A stretch of DNA of 15,812 nucleotides from positions 1 to 15,812 of the forward strand of contig JBKPCR010000176.1 in assembly GCA_046727435.1 (NCBI GenBank), given 5' to 3'. The DNA comes from CAVPRW01 sp046727435 [NCBI: bacterium] (lineage in GTDB: Bacteria > Tectomicrobia > Entotheonellia > J063). Made by a program: the position numbers and the translations under genes. Below, in pieces: positions 239-15,442 of the stretch; position 1 is the first letter of the stretch, and the number at the start of each line of letters is the position of its first letter. The notes under the pieces are model-generated. The model saw nothing but the letters and a program-made list of their open reading frames with translations. It made no database searches and was not told the origin of the DNA.

Positions 239-694
239 ACACCTCTCTGTACCCTCTATCGTCCTACTCAAAACGATGGTATCTTCGCGGGCGCGGCTCA
301 GATCCCGGCTGGTCTCGTCCACGACCTGTGCGACATAGACCGGATCTTCGTAGATCGCCCGATACCCATCCTGCGTGACGCACGGCTGCATGAGTGCGAG
401 TACGGAAACTTTGAAGGGCGCCCGCGCACGGAAATGGAAATTGCACGCGCCGCGGCCATTCGCGTGCCATTCCCCCACGGCGAGAGTTACGAGCAGGTAG
501 CGGTGCGGATGCGCACTTTCCTGGAGGAGCTTGCCGCCGAGCGCGACGGTCAGCAGGTGCTGCTCATTGGGCACTCCGCAACGCTGTGGATGCTCGAGCA
601 CTGGTTGCGGGATCGACCGCTGGAAGCCGCAGTGGGTATGTTTCCTGAGCGGCCGTGGCGATTTGCGCTGGAACCCCAGCACTGGCACACCTGA
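239..694 (+). pseudogene. Decayed histidine phosphatase (phosphoglycerate-mutase-like) family gene
   Basis: The frame is open from just after a TAG at 236-238 to the TGA at 692-694 (151 codons). The C-terminal two thirds is clearly of the histidine phosphatase superfamily. It has a PILRDARLHECEYGNFEGRP segment, a PHGESYEQVAVRMRTFLEE helix and the second catalytic His in LLIGHSATLWMLEH. The N-terminal part is not intact. The family's RHG/RHA motif with the phospho-accepting His is absent, and only a fragment like N-x-GIFAG remains. The stretch between it and PILRD is about half the usual length, and no ATG or GTG start precedes the conserved region. An in-frame ATG at 434 would give only 86 residues without the catalytic core. 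I infer a remnant from deletions or frameshifts in the 5' half. A sequencing error or an unusual truncated protein is the alternative. Confidence 0.6.
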
Positions 695-2630: not shown

Positions 2631-4283
2631 TTACCACCCCCGCAAATCGGCGATGGTCCCGTCGACGTAGAGAATCTGCAAGGCTGCCAGCACATTGCGC
2701 TCGATCAGCGCGCGTTCACTCGCCTCTCGCCCGTCACCTAGCTTGGCCACCAATGCCCCGACCGAGGTGTCGCCGTCGATGAGGGATACTAACCTCTCCA
2801 CCAGACCACTACAGGGGATGCCTTCTGGATATCCGGCCGTACGCAGGACATACCCCCAGACAAACTCGCCCTCGGCCAAGATGGGCTGGCGCTCAACTTT
2901 GACTCCTGCGTCCAGGCGTGGCACCAGCCGATAGAGCTTGGTACGCTGCATGTCCGTCTGATTCAACATTGTGGCTAGCTGGGCACGGCGTGCCACTCGC
3001 TCGGATTCCACCAGCCGCACGCTGTGCACGAACTCGGCCGGTGCCTCGCCATGTTCCAACACCACACGCTCATAGCTGCGGGGCGGTTGGCCCGCGACCG
3101 CGTGCAGGAACGCCTGTCGTGGCGAAAGATGACCATGCCCGAGCAAGCGCCGCGCTTCCCAAAAATAGGAGTCGATGGTACGGTTGCTCGAGTAAAACAA
3201 CGCGGCCATGTCGTGAAAATGACTGTATTCCTTGTAGTACAGATCAGTATAGACACGTCCGGCGGTGTCGCGCATGCTTGGGTCTTTCAATGCCGTCGTG
3301 ACATATGCCGCCGCCAACACACCCGCCATCAATGCCAAATGCACACCGGACGAGAACAGCGGGTCCACAAAACAGGCCGCATCCCCTACCAGGATATAGC
3401 CATCGCCTACCACCTCGTTGGAGACGTAGGACCAGTCTTTGAGGACGAAGGGGCCATAGGCCAAATTCGCCTCCTGTAGCATCTGCTGTGTGTACGGCGC
3501 CTCGATGATCTGCTCGATCAGGAAGCGCTGCGGACTACTGTGGCGCATGCCCTCCTGGCCAGTTTGACTATCCACCACTGCTCCTACACTCATCCAGCCA
3601 TTGTGCAAGGGGATGTTCCAGAACCAACCATGCGGGTAGGATTCGACCAGGAGATTCGTTTCATCCGGAGCAGGCAGACGCTCAGCTCCGGCGAAATACC
3701 CATAGACGGCGAGATTCTGGAATGACGGATCCCAGCGGCGCAGGTCAAGCTGGCGACCCAGAAGCGCACTCTGGCCGCTGGCGTCAACGATGAAGCGGGC
3801 GCGGGCGATGCGCTCGCCGATGCCATCGACGGTAAAGCGGACACCGACCGCTCGGCCATCCTCGAAGACGACTTCACGAACGGTATGGCCTTCTCGCACC
3901 TCAACGCCATGAGCGCGACTATTGTCCAGGAGTAACTGATCGAAGTGTGGGCGCCAGACTTGGTAGGTGTGCGGATATTTCCGGTTCGTCTCGCGAAAAT
4001 ACCAGCTCCAGGGCGTTTTTTCGCGACCCCAAACCATGGTCGCACCCCATTTGAGCAGGAACCCCGCTTGCTGAAGGGCAGGCAGGACGCCAAGCTCCTC
4101 CAGCACGGGCATACTGGAGGGGAGGAGCGATTCGCCGATGTGATCGCGCGGGAAATGGGCTCGTTCCAGCAGCACGACTTGGTGACCCTTGCGCGCCAGC
4201 ATGGTGGCGGCGGTGCTGCCGCCGGGGCCGCCGCCGATCACTAGCACGTCAGAGGTAAGGTCGGGGTTGTTCGATTGGACCAT
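2631..4283 (-). CDS. FAD-dependent halogenase / oxidoreductase, variant-B halogenase-like
   Basis: This 550-residue flavoprotein opens with the Rossmann motif GGGPGG (17-22). The FPRDHIGESLLPSS segment (44-57) and a Lys in LLKWGATMVWG (Lys78) follow. The halogenase hallmark W-x-W-x-I-P is present as GWFWNIP (219-225). FAD-binding VGDAACFVDPLFSSGVHLA (299-317) resembles the loop of CmlS/CndH-type halogenases; in CmlS an Asp is linked covalently to FAD, and Asp307 may be the equivalent. A long C-terminal region (about 400-550) with a winged-helix-like end matches the extension of variant-B enzymes. Known members chlorinate aromatic groups, often bound to carrier proteins, using FADH2, O2 and halide. 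AAAGG lies 7 nt before the ATG at 4283; an ATG at 4289 is the alternative start. No flavin reductase is in the window. A hydroxylase or other flavin monooxygenase function remains possible. Confidence 0.82.
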   Translation of the reverse strand: MVQSNNPDLTSDVLVIGGGPGGSTAATMLARKGHQVVLLERAHFPRDHIGESLLPSSMPVLEELGVLPALQQAGFLLKWGATMVWGREKTPWSWYFRETNRKYPHTYQVWRPHFDQLLLDNSRAHGVEVREGHTVREVVFEDGRAVGVRFTVDGIGERIARARFIVDASGQSALLGRQLDLRRWDPSFQNLAVYGYFAGAERLPAPDETNLLVESYPHGWFWNIPLHNGWMSVGAVVDSQTGQEGMRHSSPQRFLIEQIIEAPYTQQMLQEANLAYGPFVLKDWSYVSNEVVGDGYILVGDAACFVDPLFSSGVHLALMAGVLAAAYVTTALKDPSMRDTAGRVYTDLYYKEYSHFHDMAALFYSSNRTIDSYFWEARRLLGHGHLSPRQAFLHAVAGQPPRSYERVVLEHGEAPAEFVHSVRLVESERVARRAQLATMLNQTDMQRTKLYRLVPRLDAGVKVERQPILAEGEFVWGYVLRTAGYPEGIPCSGLVERLVSLIDGDTSVGALVAKLGDGREASERALIERNVLAALQILYVDGTIADLRGW

Positions 4284-4300
4284 TGTCATACCTTTGGCTA

Positions 4301-4329
4301 GTGCCCCCTCTCCCTGTGGGCGAGGGCAC
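4301..4329. repeat. Palindromic intergenic repeat (CCCTCTCCC-type)
   Basis: GTGCCCCCTCTCCC and GGGCGAGGGCAC flank a TGT loop and form an imperfect hairpin with a 2-nt bulge and one mismatch. It resembles the CCCTCTCCC...GGGAGAGGG family of short intergenic palindromes scattered through many bacterial genomes. It lies in the 77-nt gap between the LLM stop and the halogenase start, so it would fold in the polycistronic mRNA and could affect expression of the downstream halogenase. Confidence 0.6.
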
Positions 4330-4360
4330 ATGGAGCACAAGGGGGTGCGAGAGATATGTT

Positions 4361-5662
4361 CTACGCCTTGATCTCCGGCGCTCCATTCCCAGACTCTTTG
4401 TCAGAGGCCTGGTCGGTGGTAGGAGTGGCATCGAGCCGCTTGCCGGTGGCGGGGTCCACCTCAAAGGGGCCAGGTAGGTCCAGCTCCGTTGCCATGTCGC
4501 GTATAGCCGGGATGACCTCCTCCCCCATGAGCCGCAGGCTGCGCATCGCGTCGTCATGCGTCATGGCGCCGTCACCGTCCCAAAAAAAGATGCTGCCGGG
4601 GCGGATGTACTCCAGAACGTGTCGGATTTTGGGCAGGACCGTCTTCGGCGTGCCGGAGATGATCGTATAGTCGGCGATCTGCTGCTCATAGGGTCGGCCC
4701 AGGACCCCCGCCGCTCCGCCGCGAGCCCGCGTCGCCACCACCTGTGTGGGGAGCACTCTGGTGCGCGACGTCAACCCCGGCAGGGTCGCTAGCGCTGGGT
4801 TGAAGGTGCCCTCGTTGCCCGCCAGGAAAGGGTTGCTTGGTCCCTGGACATATTTTCGTCCGGCCTGCTCGGCCAGCTCTTCCGTTTCATCGACGTGTAC
4901 CTTCCACAGGTAGCCGATGTTCTGCGGACCCGACTCATAGCCAAGCTCTTCGGCGGTATCATGATAGAGTTGAAACGCCTGCTTGGTGGGTTCCATCTCG
5001 GTGGCGAGCATGATGTAGGGGATACGTTCTTTGGCTGCCCAAAGCAGCGAATCGCGGCTCACCACGCCCGGCAGCCAGATAGGCGGGTGCGGCTTTTGAT
5101 AAGGTTTCACCCAGGGATTGACATGCCGGAAGTGATAATGCTTGCCCTCCCAGCGGAAGGGACCTGAGGTCGTCCAGGCCTTGACGATGAACTCATGGGC
5201 CTCCTGGAAGCGCTCCCAGTTGTAGTGCGGTGGGGCATTGTGCGCCACGCTCTCGCGACCGGTGCCACGCACCCACCCGGAGACCAAGCGACCGCGGGAG
5301 ATCAGGTCGATCATCGCCAGTTGCTCCACCAGCCAGAGCGGGTCGTCCCAGATGGGGATGATATTCCCCAGCAGCACGATCTTAGCCCTGTGAGTGATGC
5401 GCGCCAGAATGGACGCTTCCACGTTCATGGCGCCCCCCATGCAAAAGGGTGTGCCGTGGTGTTCGTTGAGCATCAGCCCATCGAAGCCCATGGCCTCGGC
5501 GTAGATTTTTTCATCGAGATAGCGGTTATACAGCTCCGCCCCCAGCTCCGGGTCATAAATGTCGTTGCTGACGGCCAGATCCATGATCGGCTTGCCGGTG
5601 GCGCCAAAGTAGCCCGATTTTGGGTCCTGATACGGCCGCTCGGTGAAGTATCCGATGAACAT
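4361..5662 (-). CDS. LLM class flavin-dependent oxidoreductase (luciferase-like monooxygenase), long form
   Basis: The 433-residue protein has the bacterial-luciferase TIM-barrel signature. It begins MFIGYFTERPYQ. It has GFDGLMLNEHHGTPF (59-73), where the NEHH motif sits at the flavin/substrate site, then EQLAMIDLISRGRLVSGW (113-130) and the PHPPIWLPG strand (191-199). It is longer than the ~330-350 residues typical of the family, with inserts after 200 and a hydrophilic tail from about 400. Related long-form proteins are annotated as FMN-dependent alkanal, alkanesulfonate or terpenoid-type monooxygenases. The ATG at 5662 follows AGGAGAGGG, and the gene starts 9 nt after the alpha/beta hydrolase stop, so the two are translationally close. 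It probably uses FMNH2 and O2 on an organic substrate handled by this operon; no reductase partner is nearby. Confidence 0.9.
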   Translation of the reverse strand: MFIGYFTERPYQDPKSGYFGATGKPIMDLAVSNDIYDPELGAELYNRYLDEKIYAEAMGFDGLMLNEHHGTPFCMGGAMNVEASILARITHRAKIVLLGNIIPIWDDPLWLVEQLAMIDLISRGRLVSGWVRGTGRESVAHNAPPHYNWERFQEAHEFIVKAWTTSGPFRWEGKHYHFRHVNPWVKPYQKPHPPIWLPGVVSRDSLLWAAKERIPYIMLATEMEPTKQAFQLYHDTAEELGYESGPQNIGYLWKVHVDETEELAEQAGRKYVQGPSNPFLAGNEGTFNPALATLPGLTSRTRVLPTQVVATRARGGAAGVLGRPYEQQIADYTIISGTPKTVLPKIRHVLEYIRPGSIFFWDGDGAMTHDDAMRSLRLMGEEVIPAIRDMATELDLPGPFEVDPATGKRLDATPTTDQASDKESGNGAPEIKA

Positions 5663-5671
5663 GGCCCTCTC

Positions 5672-6469
5672 CTATGACAGAAATGCCTGCACGTGCCGTA
5701 CGAACTCGTCGGCTTGTTCAATCTCTGGATGATGCCCACAGTTATCCAACACGACTAGCTGTGAGCCAGGAATCGAGGTATGATAGACCTCAGCGGCGCT
5801 CAGGGGAACGATGGCGTCTTGCCGTCCCCAGACAATGAGCGTCGGGAGCTTCCGGAGCCGGCGGAGCAGATGCGGCAACGAAGGATAATGCATATAGGGC
5901 CGCCAACCCAGACGGCAGGCTTCCTCGCGCGCCATCTCCCAGGCTTCAGCTTGCTCAGGCGTGGGGGTGTCAGGGCAGATTTTCTGAAACTCTGGCGTGT
6001 TGGCGGAGTTGAAATAGCCGACCGTCAGATATTGCTTCGCCACCTCCAGGAACATGTCATAGATTTGCCCAGAGGGCGGCCGAATGCCCATCGCACCGAC
6101 CAGTACCAACTGTTTGAACTGCCCTGGACACATCGTGGCCATCTCGGCCGCCAGCCATCCGCCGAGCGAGAAGCCAATCGCAGGCACCTGCCCCAACCCC
6201 AGCTCGTCCAGGGCATCGAGATACCAACCAGCCATATCCCGCATGTTCGTAATCCAGTCTAGTCCCTCCGACTTCCCAAAGCCGGGATGTAATGGAATAT
6301 AGAGGGTGTGCTGCTGGGCCAGGGCCTCGTGAAAGCGCAGCCAGCCTGGTTGTCCCAGCTCATCATGCAGGATCAACAATGGCACGCCGCTGCCACCCTT
6401 GACGAGCTGGAGTCTGGTACCGGCCACCTCAACGATCTCTTCAGTCCAGGGTTCGGTGCTTGTCGTCAT
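5672..6469 (-). CDS. Alpha/beta-fold hydrolase
   Basis: This is a 265-residue alpha/beta hydrolase with an intact triad. The nucleophile is Ser101 in the elbow GFSLGG, the acid is Asp218 in WGRQDAIVP, and the base is His246 in NCGHHPEIEQ. The oxyanion-hole region near LLILHDELGQPG (31-42) and the PLHPGFGKSE loop (59-68) fit the epoxide hydrolase / C-C hydrolase / esterase branch. Residues ~130-195 form the cap. Start choice: AAGGAGG lies 10 nt before the ATG at 6469. It is the first gene of the minus-strand operon and is followed after 9 nt by the LLM oxidoreductase. Next to VOC and FAH enzymes it could hydrolyse a meta-cleavage product. A thioesterase or lactonase role is equally compatible with the residues seen. 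Confidence 0.92.
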   Translation of the reverse strand: MTTSTEPWTEEIVEVAGTRLQLVKGGSGVPLLILHDELGQPGWLRFHEALAQQHTLYIPLHPGFGKSEGLDWITNMRDMAGWYLDALDELGLGQVPAIGFSLGGWLAAEMATMCPGQFKQLVLVGAMGIRPPSGQIYDMFLEVAKQYLTVGYFNSANTPEFQKICPDTPTPEQAEAWEMAREEACRLGWRPYMHYPSLPHLLRRLRKLPTLIVWGRQDAIVPLSAAEVYHTSIPGSQLVVLDNCGHHPEIEQADEFVRHVQAFLS

Positions 6470-8005: not shown

Positions 8006-8218
8006 CTACTCAGGAAGCCCGTAGCGGAGGGTGTCGTAGCGGAAGAGGGGCACGATGCCAACTTTGCGGTTGAGACTCTCTAAGAAGTCCTGGGTCTGCT
8101 CGGGACTGATGCGCATGGCCCCCGCCAACCCCTTGACAGACTGCGGCCCTTGGCGCAAGAGCGTAATGAGGTCTCGTTCTTCTGCGGTCAAATCACCAAT
8201 GTCTAGGGGCTTGCCCAT
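8006..8218 (-). CDS. Small winged-helix (wHTH) DNA-binding-like protein
   Basis: This 70-residue protein resembles a lone winged helix-turn-helix. LTAEERDLITLLRQ (10-23) forms the first helix. SVKGLAGAMRISPEQTQDFLESL (27-49) gives the helix-turn-recognition helix. VPLFRYDTLRYGL (56-68) fits the beta wing. It has no sensor or oligomerisation domain, so it may act as a small regulator or part of a multi-protein complex. The ATG at 8218 is supported by GAGAGGGAGAG directly upstream. A longer frame to 8395 exists but its extra N-terminal part looks non-coding. No target site is proven; a palindrome about 200 nt upstream is listed separately. Confidence 0.65.
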   Translation of the reverse strand: MGKPLDIGDLTAEERDLITLLRQGPQSVKGLAGAMRISPEQTQDFLESLNRKVGIVPLFRYDTLRYGLPE

Positions 8219-8410
8219 AGCTCTCTCCCTCTCAATGAGTTCTGGTCTGAGGCAGGATTTCTGCCGGTCATCACAGGCTAGGGCAAAAGGTGTGCCAGGT
8301 GGTGCCGCGATGCTATCGAGGGCTATGACGTCATCATCTTCCAAGGCAGACACGCCCTGAGGGCGCGCACGCTGGAAGACACGTAGGGACGACAATCCTG
8401 GACGAAGGGA

Positions 8411-8801: not shown

Positions 8802-9072
8802 GCGCTTGTGCTCTGGCACTTCTCATTCTTATTGCTTGATTTCAGGGGCTCTAGCGCCTAAAATTGAGAGGGAAAAGTGCCGATTCCCGTGTGTCTGGGA
8901 AATGCTTTTTGGGACCCTCCTGGCTGTCCTGATGGTGTGTTGGAGCTTATGGCGTCTATCGCTGCCTCCCTCCCGTAGGTCCTAGATTGCAGTTCAACAG
9001 CAAAACAGTGTGATAGATGTACAAGGGCGTGCGTTCCCTGCGGGGCGTAGGCCGTATGGGTGGGGGTATATG

Positions 9073-9480
9073 ATGACTCCGATGCGGATTCTGATCGTCG
9101 AGGATGAACGGCTCGTGGGCTTTGACCTTCGCCGACGACTGAGTCGGATAGGACATGCGGTCGTGGGTATCGCCGCCTCCGGCGAGGAGGCGATAGATCA
9201 CGCCCAGCGACTCCAGCCTGATCTCGTGCTCATGGACGTCCGCTTGCGCGGCCCCATGGATGGCATCGAGGCCGCTCAGCACATCTGGGCGCAGTTCCAG
9301 ATTCCCGTGATTTTCATGTCGGCATACACCTCGGTAGAGACCCTGGAGCACATCTGGCGCACCGTGCCAGCGGGGTATCTCTCGAAGCCCTTTTTTGAGG
9401 ACCAACTCCGCCTGGCTCTGGAGAGGGCTTTGGAGACCCGTCAGCGGCGGCTCAATCCCCCCGAGAGGCATCATCCCTAG
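9073..9480 (+). CDS. Stand-alone CheY-like response regulator
   Basis: This is a single receiver domain of 135 residues with no output domain. The key residues are present: the acidic pair Glu10-Asp11 (ILIVEDE), the phospho-acceptor Asp55 (LVLMDVRLRG), the switch Ser83 (IFMSAY) and the conserved Lys105 (YLSKPF). After phosphorylation by an unlinked sensor kinase it would signal through protein contacts, as stand-alone regulators or phosphorelay intermediates do. GGGGG lies 6 nt before the ATG at 9073; ATG codons at 9070 and 9082 are alternatives. No histidine kinase is in the window, so the partner is unknown. A short AGCGAAAGCGCT hairpin overlaps the stop region but is too weak to call a terminator. 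Confidence 0.9.
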   Translation: MTPMRILIVEDERLVGFDLRRRLSRIGHAVVGIAASGEEAIDHAQRLQPDLVLMDVRLRGPMDGIEAAQHIWAQFQIPVIFMSAYTSVETLEHIWRTVPAGYLSKPFFEDQLRLALERALETRQRRLNPPERHHP

Positions 9481-9893
9481 CGAAAGCGCTTGTAGGTCCT
9501 TCACTATCCCTAGCCGAGAGCTGCTCCGCGGAGAGTCATCTATCATAAAACCGGCGCACAGACGCTTACGTTTCCCTAAAAGTCCTTCTGCGGAGGTTGT
9601 CAAGAGCCTTGAGGGAAGAGGCGTGAGCCCCATCGCGATACATCCATTGACCCCTACCCCTATCGCTGCTCGCCTCCTCTTCCGGTTGTGCGTAACGTGG
9701 CGGCAACATGGGTGACATTTGCCAACCTTTCATGCGATGCCATGTGACGACACCTCGCCAACAGGCTTGATTTTCCTGGTACGATAGTACATGGTGGTCT
9801 CTGGCGCAATGGCCAACTCTGAATCGCGTATCGCAGGTCGATGCAAGCAAGATGGCTTGAAAAGTATGGTACGATCAGCGGGGGTTAACGGAC
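9481..9893. other. Intergenic region upstream of the PPTase operon
   Basis: No gene is supported in these 413 nt. The string TGGTACGAT occurs twice, at 9777-9785 and 9867-9875. Each copy fits an extended -10 element (TGg plus TACGAT), but neither has a convincing -35. One of them may drive the PPTase-MbtH-M16 operon. The 10-bp palindrome CTCCGCGGAG at 9524-9533 is of unclear meaning. Confidence 0.4.
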
Positions 9894-10649
9894 ATGACGA
9901 GCCTCGATCATCTCTGGTGCCGTTCACCAGCAGCGCTGACGCTGTCAAGCGCTGAGGTCCATGTCTGGCGGGCCTGCCTCGACCCAGCTGCGTCATGTGT
10001 CGAGCATCTGCGACATACCCTCTCTGTTGACGAATTACAGCGGGCTGCGCGCTTCCACTTCCCACGAGACCGCCGGCGCTTTACCGTCGCCCGGGGGGTG
10101 CTCAGAGACATCCTCAGTCGTTATTTGGGTGTGCCACCGTCTGAACTGGGATTTCGCTATAGTGCCTACGGCAAGCCAGCCCTGGCCGATGACTTTGATG
10201 CCACGAGGGTGCGCTTCAACGTCTCCCATTCCCACGAGATGGCCCTGTTTGCCGTCACATGTGGCCGGGAGGTCGGCGTCGATATCGAATACCTGGGGAG
10301 GGAGGTCCGCGGTGAAGAGATCGCCGAACACTTCTTCTCCACCCAGGAGCGCGCCAACCTCCGCGCGCTCCCTGCGGAGATGAAGCATCTGGGGTTCTTC
10401 AACTGCTGGACGCGGAAGGAGGCGTATATCAAAGCCCACGGGGAGGGGCTGTCGCTGCCGCTGGACCAGTTTGACGTGTCGCTGGCCCCCGGGGAGGCAG
10501 CGGCGCTGCTGGCCACGCGTAGCGATCCACGGGAAGCCCTGCGCTGGTCTTTACAGGCTCTCACTCCTAGGCCGGGCTATGTCGCGGCCTTGGCGGTGGA
10601 GGGCCAGGGCTGGCAACTCACCTGCTGGCAATGGAGCACGACATCGTGA
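9894..10649 (+). CDS. 4'-phosphopantetheinyl transferase, Sfp/Gsp type
   Basis: The enzyme moves the 4'-phosphopantetheine arm of coenzyme A onto the conserved Ser of carrier proteins (ACP or PCP), activating PKS, NRPS or fatty-acid synthases. At 251 residues it has the two-lobed Sfp length. Motifs are in order: YGKPAL (92-97), RFNVSHS (107-113), GREVGVDIE (124-132; Asp130 and Glu132 bind Mg2+) and FNCWTRKEAYIKAHGEGLS (169-187; Trp172, Lys175, Glu176 and Lys180 match the WxxKEAxxK motif). GGGGG lies 9 nt before the ATG. It is the first gene of an operon whose next start codon overlaps its stop as GTGA, so translation of the MbtH-like gene is likely coupled. No carrier protein or synthase is in the window. 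Confidence 0.95.
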   Translation: MTSLDHLWCRSPAALTLSSAEVHVWRACLDPAASCVEHLRHTLSVDELQRAARFHFPRDRRRFTVARGVLRDILSRYLGVPPSELGFRYSAYGKPALADDFDATRVRFNVSHSHEMALFAVTCGREVGVDIEYLGREVRGEEIAEHFFSTQERANLRALPAEMKHLGFFNCWTRKEAYIKAHGEGLSLPLDQFDVSLAPGEAAALLATRSDPREALRWSLQALTPRPGYVAALAVEGQGWQLTCWQWSTTS

Positions 10650-10858
10650 ATCGAGTCGAACAGAAAGACACCACGATCTCCAAGATCGTGGTCAATCATG
10701 AAGAACAGTACGCGAGCTGGCCTGCGAACCGCAAGAACCTGCTCGGCTGGAGGGCTGTCGGCACGCCTGGCACGGCAGCTCCCTGTATGGCATATATCAA
10801 AGGGGTATGCACCGATATGCGCCCGCTGCACTTGTACAAAGCGATGGCAGGCGTATGA
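10646..10858 (+). CDS. MbtH-like protein with Trp-to-Cys change
   Basis: MbtH proteins (about 60-75 residues) bind NRPS adenylation domains and help their folding or activity. This 70-residue protein aligns without gaps over the signature. It has VVNHEEQYASWP (15-26) for the NxExQxSxWP part, LLGW (32-35) for PxGW, and CTDMRP (55-60) for WTDxRP. Trp25 and Trp35 are kept, but the third conserved Trp is Cys55, and the Pro of PxGW is Leu32. The GTG at 10646 is chosen over an in-frame ATG at 10631. GGAG lies 9 nt upstream of it, it overlaps the PPTase stop as GTGA, and it gives the family length. The stop overlaps the next gene's ATG. The NRPS partner is not in this window. The family call rests on the motif spacing; activity with the changed residues is uncertain. 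Confidence 0.82.
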   Translation: MNRVEQKDTTISKIVVNHEEQYASWPANRKNLLGWRAVGTPGTAAPCMAYIKGVCTDMRPLHLYKAMAGV

Positions 10859-13800
10859 CGGCATGGATCTTGGTGATGAGCCTGCTGCTGTCCATCATCG
10901 GCCTGTCGACTGAGACTTTCGGGCAACAGGCCAGGGGACAGCTCTTCCGAGCGGACAAGACGCCTCCAGCGCTATTCCATATCGGGCAGCTGATTGCGGG
11001 ATTTCAGGTCGTCGCGCACTATACGAATCATACTGAGCAGGTCGTAGGTCTGCGATTGACCCACCTGGCCACTGGCCTCCCGCTGCACTTCCTCTGGATG
11101 GACACGGCTCCGCAAGCGGCGATCATGATCCGCACCTATCCCGATGCAGACCATGGAGCGGCCCATGCGTTGGAGCATCTCCTACTCGGCAAAGGTACCA
11201 CGGGGCGCGCACTCCAGACGCTGGCCGACATGCGCCTGGGTAGCATTACAGCGGGTACGGCCGAGCGGTACACCTGGTATCATTTCTACGCTGGCAGTGG
11301 TAGGACATCCTTCTATGAAGTGTTGAGGCAGCTGCTGGACGCCCTCTTCCATCCCGATTTCAGCGATGCCGAGGCACAACAGGAGGTGTACCAGATCGGC
11401 GTCGCCACCGAGCCGCAAACGGGTACGCGCTGGCTGACTGAACAGGGCACAGTTTATACCGAGATGTACAGCCAGCAGGGGATGTACGACTCCTGGTACG
11501 CCCTATTGAAGTTGGCGTTGGGCCCAGACAATCCGCTGACGTTTCAAGCTGGCGGGACGCCGGATGCCATCCGCCGCCTCACGCCGCAGGAGATACGCCG
11601 GTTCCATCGTCAGCACTATGCCCTGGGACCTAGCACGCCTCTGGTGATCGTCATAGATCGCCAGCAACCCCCTGAGCAGGTGCTTACTGCGCTCGAAAGG
11701 CTTCTGTTCGCTTTCCACCACACCGAGTCTAACGCCGCACGTGAGACCGTCGTCACATCTCACCCTCGCATCCTGCCGGCCGATCTCCGGGAGTTGCGGC
11801 TCGTGCCACGGCCCAGCAAGGATGCCACCGACCCGGCACCGATTGTGTTCGGGTGGCCTCCCGTCCATCTGCCCTCCTTCGATGATCGTCTGCGCCTCGA
11901 CGCCTTGCTGGCGGCCCTCGGACAGGGACCCCAGTCGATACTCTATCGCAGGCTTGTCGACCGCCAGACGCGGGAGATCGATCTCGGGGCGACCGGAGTG
12001 GAGAGTGCACTCCTGCCCACCTATGATCCGGCATGGCCGGCAAGTCTGGTCTGGATTGAAGGCATCCCCGGCGATCGCATCACCACCGAACGCCTCGAAG
12101 AGCTCCGCAGCCACATACAGGCCAGGCTTCGCGAGATCGCCAGCTATCCTGACGGGTCTGGTGAGTTGCTGGCGCTCAACCGCCAGATCATCGCCTATCT
12201 CACCGCCCGCCGACGGGCCCTGACCGTATGGCACGCCAGTCCGCCAGGCTTCGGCCAGCGACGCCTCGAAGCCACGTGGATCGAGCATCTGGAGTTGTTA
12301 GACCAAGAGCCGACAGGGCGTCGGCCGCTGGACTGGCAACCCTATTGGTCTCGGCTGGGGGCGGAGATCGAGTCAGGCACCAACATCTGGCGCGGTGTGA
12401 TCGAACGAGCGGGGCTCCTCGAAATACCGTATGGAACTGCCGCAATCCCCTCTCCCACGCTGCTGGAACAACTGGAGCAGGAGCGACAAGCACGCCTGGC
12501 CACCGCCCTCGCCACCATCCAGCTGCGCTACAACAGTGCTGACGACCAGGAGGCGCTGCGGAGGTTTGAAGCTGATCAGTCCGATCAGCAGGCGCAGCGC
12601 TCGGGGACGCCCCAGCTGATGGCGCTGCCCACCTTCACCATGCACCCGCCGCGCACCTTTGACGACACGCTGTCCTATGCTCGACTGACAATCGCGGGGG
12701 TGCCGGTGGTGGCCAGTTATGTCGAAGGCGCAGCCCTGACGGAGATCGGCCTCGCATTCGATCTCCAGGTCGTGCCACGCCGTCTTTACCGGTACTTACC
12801 ACTGCTGCCGGGTCTGCTGCGCTCGACCGGTGTGCATGAGGGGGAGGGGGTGACGCCGTATCGCACGTTTGAAGAGCACATACAGCGCCATCTCTATCGC
12901 CTGGAGACCCGCTACAGTGCCACTCCCGAGGCCAATCGCTACGAGCTAATGATCACGGCCTCGGGAGTAGGTCTGAAGGAATTCAGCGCCGCGCTCGAGT
13001 CCGTGCAGAGCGTTACGCAAGCCAATGCACTACGTGCCGATAACCTGTCGCGGATCGCTGATCTCCTCCAACAGCATCTCAGCATCGAGCGCACCCTGAC
13101 CCAGCGTCCAGAGGAAGAGTGGATCGAAACGCTGGCGCAGGCCTTCCGCTTTCAGGACAATCATCTATATCTCAGCCTCATGGCGCCACCGACACGCGCT
13201 CATCACTTGCATCGCCTTGCCTGGCAGTTTGCCGGGCCAGTCCCAACGGAGACGCTGCAGGATTTACAGGTGTTTGCCACCCGGCTTCTGGCGTCCCTGC
13301 GAACGGTCTCGGTCGCGGAAATAGCGCCGATGCTGGCGGACATACAGGAGACCGGATTGCGGGGGCAGCTCGTCGACTATTGGCGGGGGCAGCTACAGGC
13401 ATGGCCGCCAGCGCTCGTATGGGAGGGTTTACAGCGTCTGAGTGCGGAAGCGCTCGCCGATCTTCAGGGGGGGCCAGCCCAAGCCATCCAGGAGATGCGC
13501 GAGCTCCAGGCGCTCATCCTCAATCGGTCGCGCCTGCGACTGTGGCTAATGGGTGACCGACGCCTTCTCCAGGAGGCCCGCCCGCACGTTGAATCGCTGC
13601 TGCGATCGTTCCCTCTCCGAGACGTGAAAGCTCCCCGTGTCGACAGGACGCCTGTCGTGTGGCCGCGACTTCACAGCCGTTATCCAGAGCTGGCGATCGG
13701 CCATCCCGCCTATGTGGGGTACATCTACGAAGGTTCCTTGACAGGAAACGTGGTGGTGACGGCCAAAGGGCCAACGTATCGAGACCTCGACGAATCAGCA

Positions 13801-14379
13801 GTCATCACAGTATTGGCGGGTAAATCGCTGGCTGGAACTGGCCCGCACACCTGGTATAAAAAGACCTGGGAGGCGGGTCTGGCCTATGGCAATGGCCTGG
13901 ATGTCCGCCCCCGCGAAGGCACTATCCTCTATTATGCAGATCGCTGCCCCAGTGTGCGGGCCACGCTGGCTTTTATTCGCACCATGGCCGACGAGGCATC
14001 TCAACCCTCGCAGCCGTCTGCCGTCGACTATGCTCTCGCGCAGACCTTCGCTTTTTCGCGCACCGCCCTCTCACCATCGGCACGAGCGGAGGCCATGGCG
14101 ATTGACCTCAGGGAAGGGCTGACGCCGGAACGGATGCAGCGCTTCTCGCAACTACTCCGGCAGCTGCGCACGGACCCACAACTCCTCCAACACCTTCGCG
14201 AGGCTGTGCCCCACGTCGTTGCGACCGTCACGCTAGGGCCAGAACATCGTGCTCTCCAGTCAGCTGCGCAAGCAATTTTTTTCGTCATCGCTCCAGAATC
14301 GCAACTCGCAGAGCTCGAAAGCGATATCCCCGGCAAACTCTTGCCGCGCGTGTGGCCAAGCGATTTCTGGCTTGAGTGA
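10855..14379 (+). CDS. Exported M16 family (PreP-like) zinc metallopeptidase
   Basis: This is a 1174-residue inverzincin-type peptidase. Residues 1-24 form a signal-peptide-like start: a hydrophobic run (ILVMSLLLSIIGL) and a likely cleavage near TFG-QQ, so it should be exported. The catalytic HxxEH is intact as HALEH (His104, Glu107, His108). Glu203 in TVYTEMYSQ is the probable third zinc ligand, 95 residues on, as in presequence proteases (M16C). The remaining length fits further M16-type domains that close the peptide chamber. It is longer than the ~1000 residues typical of PreP. Family members degrade or trim unfolded peptides. The ATG at 10855 overlaps the MbtH stop as ATGA, indicating translational coupling; an upstream ATG at 10807 lies inside mbtH and would mask the signal peptide. 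Linkage to PPTase and MbtH hints at a role in peptide product maturation, export or self-protection, which is inference. Confidence 0.88.
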   Translation: MTAWILVMSLLLSIIGLSTETFGQQARGQLFRADKTPPALFHIGQLIAGFQVVAHYTNHTEQVVGLRLTHLATGLPLHFLWMDTAPQAAIMIRTYPDADHGAAHALEHLLLGKGTTGRALQTLADMRLGSITAGTAERYTWYHFYAGSGRTSFYEVLRQLLDALFHPDFSDAEAQQEVYQIGVATEPQTGTRWLTEQGTVYTEMYSQQGMYDSWYALLKLALGPDNPLTFQAGGTPDAIRRLTPQEIRRFHRQHYALGPSTPLVIVIDRQQPPEQVLTALERLLFAFHHTESNAARETVVTSHPRILPADLRELRLVPRPSKDATDPAPIVFGWPPVHLPSFDDRLRLDALLAALGQGPQSILYRRLVDRQTREIDLGATGVESALLPTYDPAWPASLVWIEGIPGDRITTERLEELRSHIQARLREIASYPDGSGELLALNRQIIAYLTARRRALTVWHASPPGFGQRRLEATWIEHLELLDQEPTGRRPLDWQPYWSRLGAEIESGTNIWRGVIERAGLLEIPYGTAAIPSPTLLEQLEQERQARLATALATIQLRYNSADDQEALRRFEADQSDQQAQRSGTPQLMALPTFTMHPPRTFDDTLSYARLTIAGVPVVASYVEGAALTEIGLAFDLQVVPRRLYRYLPLLPGLLRSTGVHEGEGVTPYRTFEEHIQRHLYRLETRYSATPEANRYELMITASGVGLKEFSAALESVQSVTQANALRADNLSRIADLLQQHLSIERTLTQRPEEEWIETLAQAFRFQDNHLYLSLMAPPTRAHHLHRLAWQFAGPVPTETLQDLQVFATRLLASLRTVSVAEIAPMLADIQETGLRGQLVDYWRGQLQAWPPALVWEGLQRLSAEALADLQGGPAQAIQEMRELQALILNRSRLRLWLMGDRRLLQEARPHVESLLRSFPLRDVKAPRVDRTPVVWPRLHSRYPELAIGHPAYVGYIYEGSLTGNVVVTAKGPTYRDLDESAVITVLAGKSLAGTGPHTWYKKTWEAGLAYGNGLDVRPREGTILYYADRCPSVRATLAFIRTMADEASQPSQPSAVDYALAQTFAFSRTALSPSARAEAMAIDLREGLTPERMQRFSQLLRQLRTDPQLLQHLREAVPHVVATVTLGPEHRALQSAAQAIFFVIAPESQLAELESDIPGKLLPRVWPSDFWLE

Positions 14380-14400
14380 GAGTGTTCAGCGTTGGCGCCT

Positions 14401-15357
14401 TTATGTGGCCACTGCTGTTCCCACCTCCGCCACCAGCTGCAACGTACGCTCCAATGATGCCGCGCGGTCGCTCCCAGCCGCCAGCGGGGACACGAGGATC
14501 TCCGCGGCGCCGAAGCTGAACAGCTCATGGAGCCGTTCGGCTACACGCGACTCATCGCCGGCCAAAACCACAGCCTCAATCATCGCGTCACTCCAGACTC
14601 CTTGGGAGGCTTCTGGGAAACCGGCTGCCGTCAGCATCTGCACATAGAAGGGCAAGCGCACATAGTTCGCCAACTGCTGCCGTGCGATCTCGCGCACTTC
14701 ATCGGGCTTGTCGTGCACGCAGATCGGTGCATGGGCCATTAACGGAGGAACCGAGCGGCCGGCCTTTTCTGCGCCAGCGCGCATAGCCGGCAGAGCAACA
14801 TCGCGGAGATATACTCCCGGACACACCCAACTGATGGCGCCGTCGGCTTCCGCTCCACACAGCTCGAACGACCTGCGTTGCAACGCCGAGGCCATCACCG
14901 GCACGTCGACCGGGGTGCGGATTTGCGCATGCGCATGATAATGCCGCCCATCGAAATCGACCGAGCCACTGTGTAGGATGGTTTTAACGATCTGTAGATA
15001 TTCGCGCAGATGTCCGAGTGGGGCGTGGAAGTCGTACCCATACATCCTTTCTACGTTGGGCCGGTGGCTGGGACCCAGGCCGAGGCGAAAACGACCGGGA
15101 GCCAACTGAGCCAGCACCTGGACTTGCTGGACCACGACCAGTGGATGACGCGGGAATGTAGGGATAATCGATGTCCCGAGACGAATACGGCTGGTCCGTA
15201 CCGCAGCGGCGGCGTACAGCGTTAACGCATCGAGCCCGACCCCGCCGGTCGTCATCCACGCTGCCGGAATCCCTAATTGTTCGGCGTGTTCGATACCCGC
15301 GACAATGCCAGGGCTATCGGGTGCCGAAACCACCACGCCGATGAGCTTCTGGGCCAT
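14401..15357 (-). CDS. LLM class oxidoreductase, probable F420-dependent (MSMEG_4879-like)
   Basis: The 318-residue TIM-barrel protein resembles the F420-dependent LLM subfamily typified by MSMEG_4879. It shows RIRLGTSIIPTFPRHP (57-72), the phosphate-site segment LAPGRFRLGLGPSHRP (85-100), then YGYDF...REYLQIVKTIL (106-128) and ADGAISWVCPG (171-181). Related enzymes transfer hydride between F420 and alcohol, aldehyde or unsaturated substrates. The actual substrate here is unknown, and FMN use cannot be excluded. A near-perfect ribosome site, AGGAGGTGA, lies 4 nt before the ATG at 15357. The gene converges on the M16 peptidase, with stops only 21 nt apart and no room for a clear terminator. 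It has its own upstream promoter and is therefore regulated apart from the PPTase operon. Confidence 0.88.
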   Translation of the reverse strand: MAQKLIGVVVSAPDSPGIVAGIEHAEQLGIPAAWMTTGGVGLDALTLYAAAAVRTSRIRLGTSIIPTFPRHPLVVVQQVQVLAQLAPGRFRLGLGPSHRPNVERMYGYDFHAPLGHLREYLQIVKTILHSGSVDFDGRHYHAHAQIRTPVDVPVMASALQRRSFELCGAEADGAISWVCPGVYLRDVALPAMRAGAEKAGRSVPPLMAHAPICVHDKPDEVREIARQQLANYVRLPFYVQMLTAAGFPEASQGVWSDAMIEAVVLAGDESRVAERLHELFSFGAAEILVSPLAAGSDRAASLERTLQLVAEVGTAVAT

Positions 15358-15442
15358 GAGTTCACCTCCTATTGTCAGGTAACCCGCCAAAGGGTTTGTA
15401 AGCTATTATCAGCGATGCCTGCGCTGCAACGACCACGGCTTG

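Follow-up and report, generated by a model that had tools for sequence, protein, structure and literature searches.

Three overlapping genes, encoding a 4'-phosphopantetheinyl transferase (PPTase), an MbtH-like protein and a large M16 zinc peptidase, lie on the + strand of a 15,812-nt stretch of DNA (the whole stretch analysed, referred to here as the window), and they raise the question of whether the three products serve one process. Our best reading, to which we give a probability of about 0.7, is that the locus carries a free-standing helper pair for nonribosomal peptide synthetases (NRPS), made up of the PPTase and the MbtH-like protein, followed by an unrelated, probably exported and co-transcribed oligopeptidase gene without a dedicated role. 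The PPTase would put phosphopantetheine on the carrier domains of synthetases whose genes lie outside this locus, elsewhere in the genome, the MbtH-like protein would bind and stabilise adenylation domains, and the M16C-like chamber peptidase would most likely be a general oligopeptidase that has no dedicated task with the pair. We infer both the substrates and the existence of NRPSs in the same genome. As judged from the genomes examined, in which the peptidase did not accompany the helpers, the three genes probably do not form one machine.

All three ORFs were confirmed on the + strand, and Pfam agreed with all three names. The PPTase ORF (9894-10649, 251 aa) encodes a Sfp/HetI-type 4'-phosphopantetheinyl transferase. 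The MbtH-like ORF runs to 10858 from a GTG at 10646 or an ATG at 10631, and the M16C/PreP-like peptidase ORF runs to 14379 from an ATG at 10855 (1174 aa) or at 10807 (1190 aa). The initial annotation had joined the genes by 4-nt overlaps, and the letters behind this are present (GTGA at 10646-10649 and ATGA at 10855-10858), but these are not the only possible junctions. For the MbtH-like gene, the GTG gives a 4-nt overlap with the PPTase gene and the ATG a 19-nt overlap; we prefer the GTG since it is preceded by a GGAG ending 9 nt upstream (pairing of -5.6 versus -1.5 kcal/mol for the ATG). For the M16 gene, ATG 10855 gives a 4-nt and ATG 10807 a 52-nt overlap with the MbtH-like gene. Neither is clearly favoured, since ATG 10807 has the better upstream pairing (-7.5 versus -5.5 kcal/mol; background median -3.4, 5% quantile -9.0) but its site ends only 1 nt before the ATG, which is a poor spacing. 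The start codons of these two genes, and hence the overlap lengths, are to be taken as uncertain. The overlaps suggest that the three genes are probably co-transcribed.

The PPTase gene is preceded, at a distance of 413 nt, by a response-regulator ORF, and the M16 gene is followed by an opposite-strand gene at 14401-15390. Promoter- and terminator-like sites in 8900-14600 did not exceed those of shuffled sequence (three terminator-like sites, against 2.8 in shuffles), and Rfam gave no match in the window at gathering scores. A 10-pair hairpin at 10670-10692 on the - strand, inside the start of the MbtH-like gene, is terminator-like on that strand. As had been noted initially, no synthetase is in view: condensation (C), adenylation (A) and PCP domains were absent from the 14 window ORFs chosen for Pfam (out of 96 listed), in a window that stops 1.4 kb beyond the M16 gene.

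The PPTase matched PF01648 at 72.9 bits (cut-off 25; E 2.7e-20) and PF22624 at E 1.1e-11. Its best NCBIfam match was HetI (NF042922), at 244.8 bits; this lies below the curated cut-off of 370, and the protein is therefore not assigned to HetI. The features of a Sfp-type PPTase were all found, that is PF01648, the N-terminal half, and intact GVDIE (10275-10289, + strand) and WTRKEA (10407-10424, + strand) sequences, which we take to be the metal and Lys/Glu motifs. The protein is 54-55% identical to the PPTases of the genomes G003 and G004 and breaks none of the 35 columns that are invariant in five relatives.

The MbtH-like protein matched PF03621 at 50 bits (curated cut-off 27; E 1.9e-13) and, among PDB entries, PA2412 at E 3.4e-15, while NCBIfam at E 0.01 gave it no name. 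The hallmark of the MbtH family is described as three fully conserved tryptophans (PMC3537567). When we examined these positions, we observed that the window protein keeps two of the three; the third is replaced by Cys (10808-10810, + strand). All three tryptophans were present at all 33 other MbtH places, and Cys was seen only in the window. Of nine columns invariant in the 33 others the protein breaks three; any other member breaks at most two of eight. Since the third hallmark Trp is missing, we call the protein MbtH-like and not a proven MbtH, and the loss of this residue has possibly weakened it. An MbtH-like protein lacking one hallmark Trp may serve as a natural test of the need for that residue.

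As this is a single unreplicated sequence, and one base suffices to turn Trp into Cys, we also considered that part of the picture is an artefact of assembly or base calling (for example that single base, or a chimeric join). This appears extremely improbable: the frames are open across 4.5 kb, and the three genes resemble one another and nine neighbouring ORFs in codon-position G+C (a tenth neighbour, NUDIX, was left out of the comparison).

We then compared the helper genes with those of other genomes. The window's LLM monooxygenase gene, described below, has as its top-ranked matches two loci of uncultured Candidatus Entotheonella (L001 and L002), and in the phylum of L001, from which five genomes were examined, an MbtH gene, this PPTase and condensation domains each occurred in G003 and G004 only. 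The other three (G001, G002 and G005, whose completeness is not stated) gave no MbtH, PPTase or condensation match at E 0.001. The relatives of the window PPTase and MbtH-like protein in G003 and G004 show 54-62% identity. In G003, which also holds a second, weak PPTase match, the PPTase gene directly adjoins the MbtH gene, with a 43-nt overlap as the ORFs were called; in G004 the two are on separate contigs. The G003 pair is on contig C4, and the condensation matches of that genome are on C2 and C5. These observations bear out the part of the initial annotation that saw a helper unit serving NRPSs encoded elsewhere as far as the PPTase and MbtH are concerned (in G003 and G004 both occur alongside condensation domains, and in G003 they are paired), but not as far as the M16 gene is concerned.

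A wider sample gave 34 MbtH places, from one search of 386 genomes (14 with MbtH) and a second of 385 genomes (29 with MbtH). The flanks were taken for 33 of them, leaving out contig C520 of G405 (a contig end), and were scored by profile in six frames, about ten stretches being shortened by contig ends. A PPTase was found somewhere in the stretch at 21 of these 33 places, which include many close relatives (the PPTase of L188, which reads in two frames, is included in the count). The order MbtH, thioesterase, PPTase on one strand occurred at 19 of the 33, with gaps after MbtH of up to about 770 nt; these 19 are not independent, since the second search, which was centred on G365, supplied 17 of them and the place in G365 itself is among the remaining two. 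This order is seen in L150, L151, L178, L179 and L181-L195, often beside NRPS genes. A PPTase gene immediately followed by MbtH on its own strand, which is the arrangement of the window, was found at only one of the 33 places, that of G003. The initial remark that no standard module combines the three genes thus holds for the trio but not for the PPTase with MbtH, which is a common combination (the 21 of 33 stretches given above).

The two helpers are also named jointly in a source on lipopeptide assembly, as accessory parts (PMC9113097). Sponge Entotheonella are reported to carry about 14 NRPS clusters per MAG, mostly single-module (PMC11705928), which bears on the pair only if the host is a sponge Entotheonella. 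The main text of a 2025 Entotheonella genome paper mentions NRPS 22 times, and MbtH, phosphopantetheinyl and peptidase not at all (PMC12858407). The open-licence papers searched included none joining Entotheonella and MbtH.

The frequent company of PPTase and MbtH with a thioesterase beside NRPS genes would also fit an origin of the pair as what remains at the margin of a lost or relocated NRPS cluster, with MbtH decaying, the PPTase kept for other carrier proteins, and the M16 gene drifted or transferred in. Three residues that are invariant in the 33 others, one of them the hallmark Trp, are indeed missing from the MbtH-like protein, whereas the PPTase breaks no invariant column, and none of the five genomes from the L001 phylum yielded a member of the M16 subfamily. 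However, the MbtH-like frame is open and scores over the Pfam cut-off, and the G003 pair, with an intact MbtH, sits on a contig apart from the condensation matches. We consider this origin unlikely.

Turning to the third gene, we observed that its product matched PF08367, PF05193 and PF00675, each barely over its cut-off (for PF08367, M16C_assoc, 29.5 bits against 25.3), in a single chain of 1174 aa. The two relatives that were scanned, L126 and L128, had no PF08367 match at E 0.01. NCBIfam at E 0.01 gave no name to the M16 protein. In a single-sequence search of the PDB, it matched the presequence protease 6xos at E 7.1e-14; we regard this as the fair search, since the alignment behind the PDB profile search included the ordinary PreP of G005, so that its PreP scores are inflated.

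The initial annotation had described this protein as an exported PreP-like zinc peptidase with an intact active site. A hydrophobic stretch, AWILVMSLLLSIIGL (10861-10905, + strand), is by hydropathy the core of a probable signal peptide, with a mean Kyte-Doolittle value of 2.5 over 15 aa, as against at most 1.48 past residue 75. With the start at ATG 10807 the core is preceded by a charged n-region, HR...GRR, and with ATG 10855 the n-region is MTAW only. We infer that the peptidase is probably exported. The zinc site is complete: the HxxEH motif reads HALEH (11164-11178, + strand) and is present in all seven full-length relatives (L130 being counted by way of its open 5' end), and the distal zinc-ligand Glu (11461-11463, + strand) lies in YTEM, at the invariant column E219 of alignment A1.

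The active site departs from the family elsewhere. An R/Y pair of the last domain is stated to be present in almost all M16 enzymes (PMC12731061). Its place in the window protein is WEAGLAY (13867-13887, + strand), where the Tyr is kept and the Arg is replaced by Trp (13867-13869). We found Trp six residues before this Tyr in the window protein and in all seven relatives, and Arg in the ordinary PreP of G005; the position was matched by its spacing to the Tyr, since alignment A1 has a gap there, in favour of G005. The corresponding stretch of human PreP also sets an Arg against the window Trp, but the stretch alone is not significant. Of the M16C features, then, HxxEH with the distal Glu and M16C_assoc with a single long chain are found, and the R/Y pair is not. 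With the Arg missing, we do not file the protein as a PreP; it is PreP-like at the zinc site at most, and the intact active site of the earlier description is true of HALEH and the distal Glu but not of the R/Y pair.

The distribution of the M16 relatives was examined by tblastn in the 386 genomes related to G004, with an E limit of 1e-10, where very divergent copies could be missed. Matches were found in 33 genomes, of which seven were strong (279.6-553.4 bits, best piece) and 26 weak (39.9-67.4 bits); the weaker ones score as ordinary M16 enzymes would. The seven strong matches form a subfamily, L126-L132, of about 1160-1220 aa (L130 being cut short), present in 7 of the 386 genomes. Signal-peptide-like starts were recognised by eye in L126, L128, L129, L131 and L132; there is none in L127, and the start of L130 is cut. 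The same seven relatives were recovered from a set of 386 genomes related to G138, which mostly coincides with the first. In two genomes of the phylum of G209, itself a genome of the subfamily, G209 itself matched, and in the phylum of L001, with its five genomes, the sole tblastn match was the ordinary PreP of G005. The 17 further genomes behind the LLM-gene loci gave no M16 match and neither did a plasmid search, and a search of the genome contigs with the M16 protein gave no relative (21 pattern matches, none confirmed).

The window protein shares 25-32% identity in the alignment (at most 33% by tblastn) with its seven full-length relatives and breaks 27 of 131 columns invariant among them, whereas the other members break 0-15. 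The low identity and the broken columns suggest that the role of the window M16 may have changed. Decay of the M16 gene was considered on the basis of these 27 columns and rejected, since the gene keeps a complete zinc site and its product is possibly just the most distant member.

The neighbours of the seven relatives differ, and none has a PPTase or MbtH in view (the upstream side being cut in L130 and limited to 169 nt in L127 and about 450 nt in L126). None of the seven genomes is among the 14 with MbtH in the 386-genome search, the MbtH and M16 searches of the 386 G004 relatives being assumed to share one genome set. Each of the 14 MbtH genomes found there matched the condensation family, and six of the seven M16-subfamily genomes did not; the seventh, G209, had one weak match (E 4.2e-6) under the cut-off, as implied by the 14-genome tally. 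Since none of the seven genomes has MbtH or a condensation domain above the cut-off, the M16 subfamily is, by these profiles, one that lives apart from NRPS in this sample. A subfamily without the R/Y Arg, with mostly signal-peptide-like starts, in genomes without NRPS, is of possible use in itself.

These counts bear directly on the initial proposal that all three genes serve one process, such as making and trimming a nonribosomal peptide. An M16 gene was found in none of the 33 MbtH stretches and MbtH in none of the seven M16-subfamily genomes, and the proposal is not supported by this comparison. The order of the trio, whose absence from any related genome had been named beforehand as a refutation, was found in no other genome examined, in a comparison sample without any genome of the window's species or genus carrying this locus. 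A dedicated three-gene operon, in which the PPTase and MbtH help to make a nonribosomal peptide and the exported M16 trims, clears or resists it, would be consistent with the overlaps, with the probable signal peptide and with the abundance of NRPS clusters in sponge Entotheonella MAGs (PMC11705928). The absence of M16 from the MbtH stretches, the seven genomes without MbtH or an above-cut-off condensation domain, and a set of searched open-licence papers without one joining MbtH, phosphopantetheinyl transferase and M16 all argue against it, and we consider it decidedly unlikely. A variant, that this is a new, lineage-specific maturation or self-protection unit, in which an MbtH-derived protein short of one hallmark Trp and an exported M16 without the R/Y Arg are tied to the PPTase, and the M16 would clear or trim a nonribosomal peptide outside the cytoplasm, seems to us very improbable. 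If the trio did function together, this would be the first M16 peptidase known to us to be tied to a nonribosomal peptide.

What counts against our reading of a helper pair with an unrelated M16 gene is that the short overlaps at both junctions resemble those of coupled genes, that the window M16 has diverged far from its relatives, and that the phylum of the host is uncertain. Gene overlap alone, however, is not proof of shared function: the helper genes track NRPS content, and the peptidase does not.

Elsewhere in the window, a flavin halogenase/reductase-like gene, an LLM monooxygenase gene and an alpha/beta hydrolase gene are grouped together on the - strand (2631-6469). The halogenase/reductase-like gene is CmlS-like, under the CmlS cut-off, and its best near-full match (69%) was L015, in G004 (of the same phylum as L001). 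The LLM protein (4364-5662) matched L001 and L002 at 85% and 84% over about 430 residues, and shared up to 89% identity, over 408 residues, with proteins from MAGs of Chloroflexota/Dehalococcoidia; the hydrolase and a second LLM gene had their best matches in Chloroflexota-labelled loci. We take the window to be probably Entotheonella-like, with kinship to Chloroflexota as the other possibility. Among 80 loci with the LLM gene, hydrolase relatives occurred in 54, the halogenase in 43 and both in 31, spread over MAGs labelled Chloroflexota, Entotheonella and Gammaproteobacteria. The PPTase, MbtH and M16 genes were absent from all 80 (stretches of up to 21 kb). A 129-aa ORF at 8006-8395 (- strand) has typical codon-position G+C and matches nothing in Pfam or NCBIfam at E 0.01. 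A short ORF at 434-694 (+ strand) has a match restricted to the C-terminal region of histidine phosphatases (108-165 of the 194 positions of PF00300) and is perhaps a broken or frameshifted gene.

Among known systems, the M16C presequence proteases (human PreP, plant PreP and falcilysin) share with the window M16 the HxxEH motif and distal Glu, M16C_assoc and a single chain of more than 1000 aa. The window protein differs from them in its probable signal peptide and in the Trp in place of the R/Y Arg, and it shares 20% identity with the ordinary PreP of G005. FusC and PqqL, which are periplasmic and act in iron acquisition (PMC12731061), are M16 proteins like the window's and likewise exported (probably so for the window protein). 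They are, however, classed as M16B, with 924-931 aa (PMC12731061), unlike the window M16. PqqL (6oft) was weakly matched by the M16 profile at E 3.6e-6 in the PDB search whose alignment included the G005 PreP, and no receptor or uptake gene was noticed in the window. M16 peptidases have also been reported in cyanobacterial bacteriocin clusters, whose products are ribosomal peptides (PMC4558948). As for the helpers, the NRPS accessory set of MbtH, thioesterase and Sfp-type PPTase resembles the window in having a PPTase and MbtH on one strand; the window differs in lacking the thioesterase and the synthetase, and in placing the PPTase before the MbtH-like gene. The pair of G003 resembles that of the window in order, strand and overlap, with 54% identity for the PPTase and 55% for MbtH. 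It is unlike the window in that the next gene is on the opposite strand (polymerase-like by eye) and is not an M16 gene, and in that its MbtH keeps all three tryptophans.
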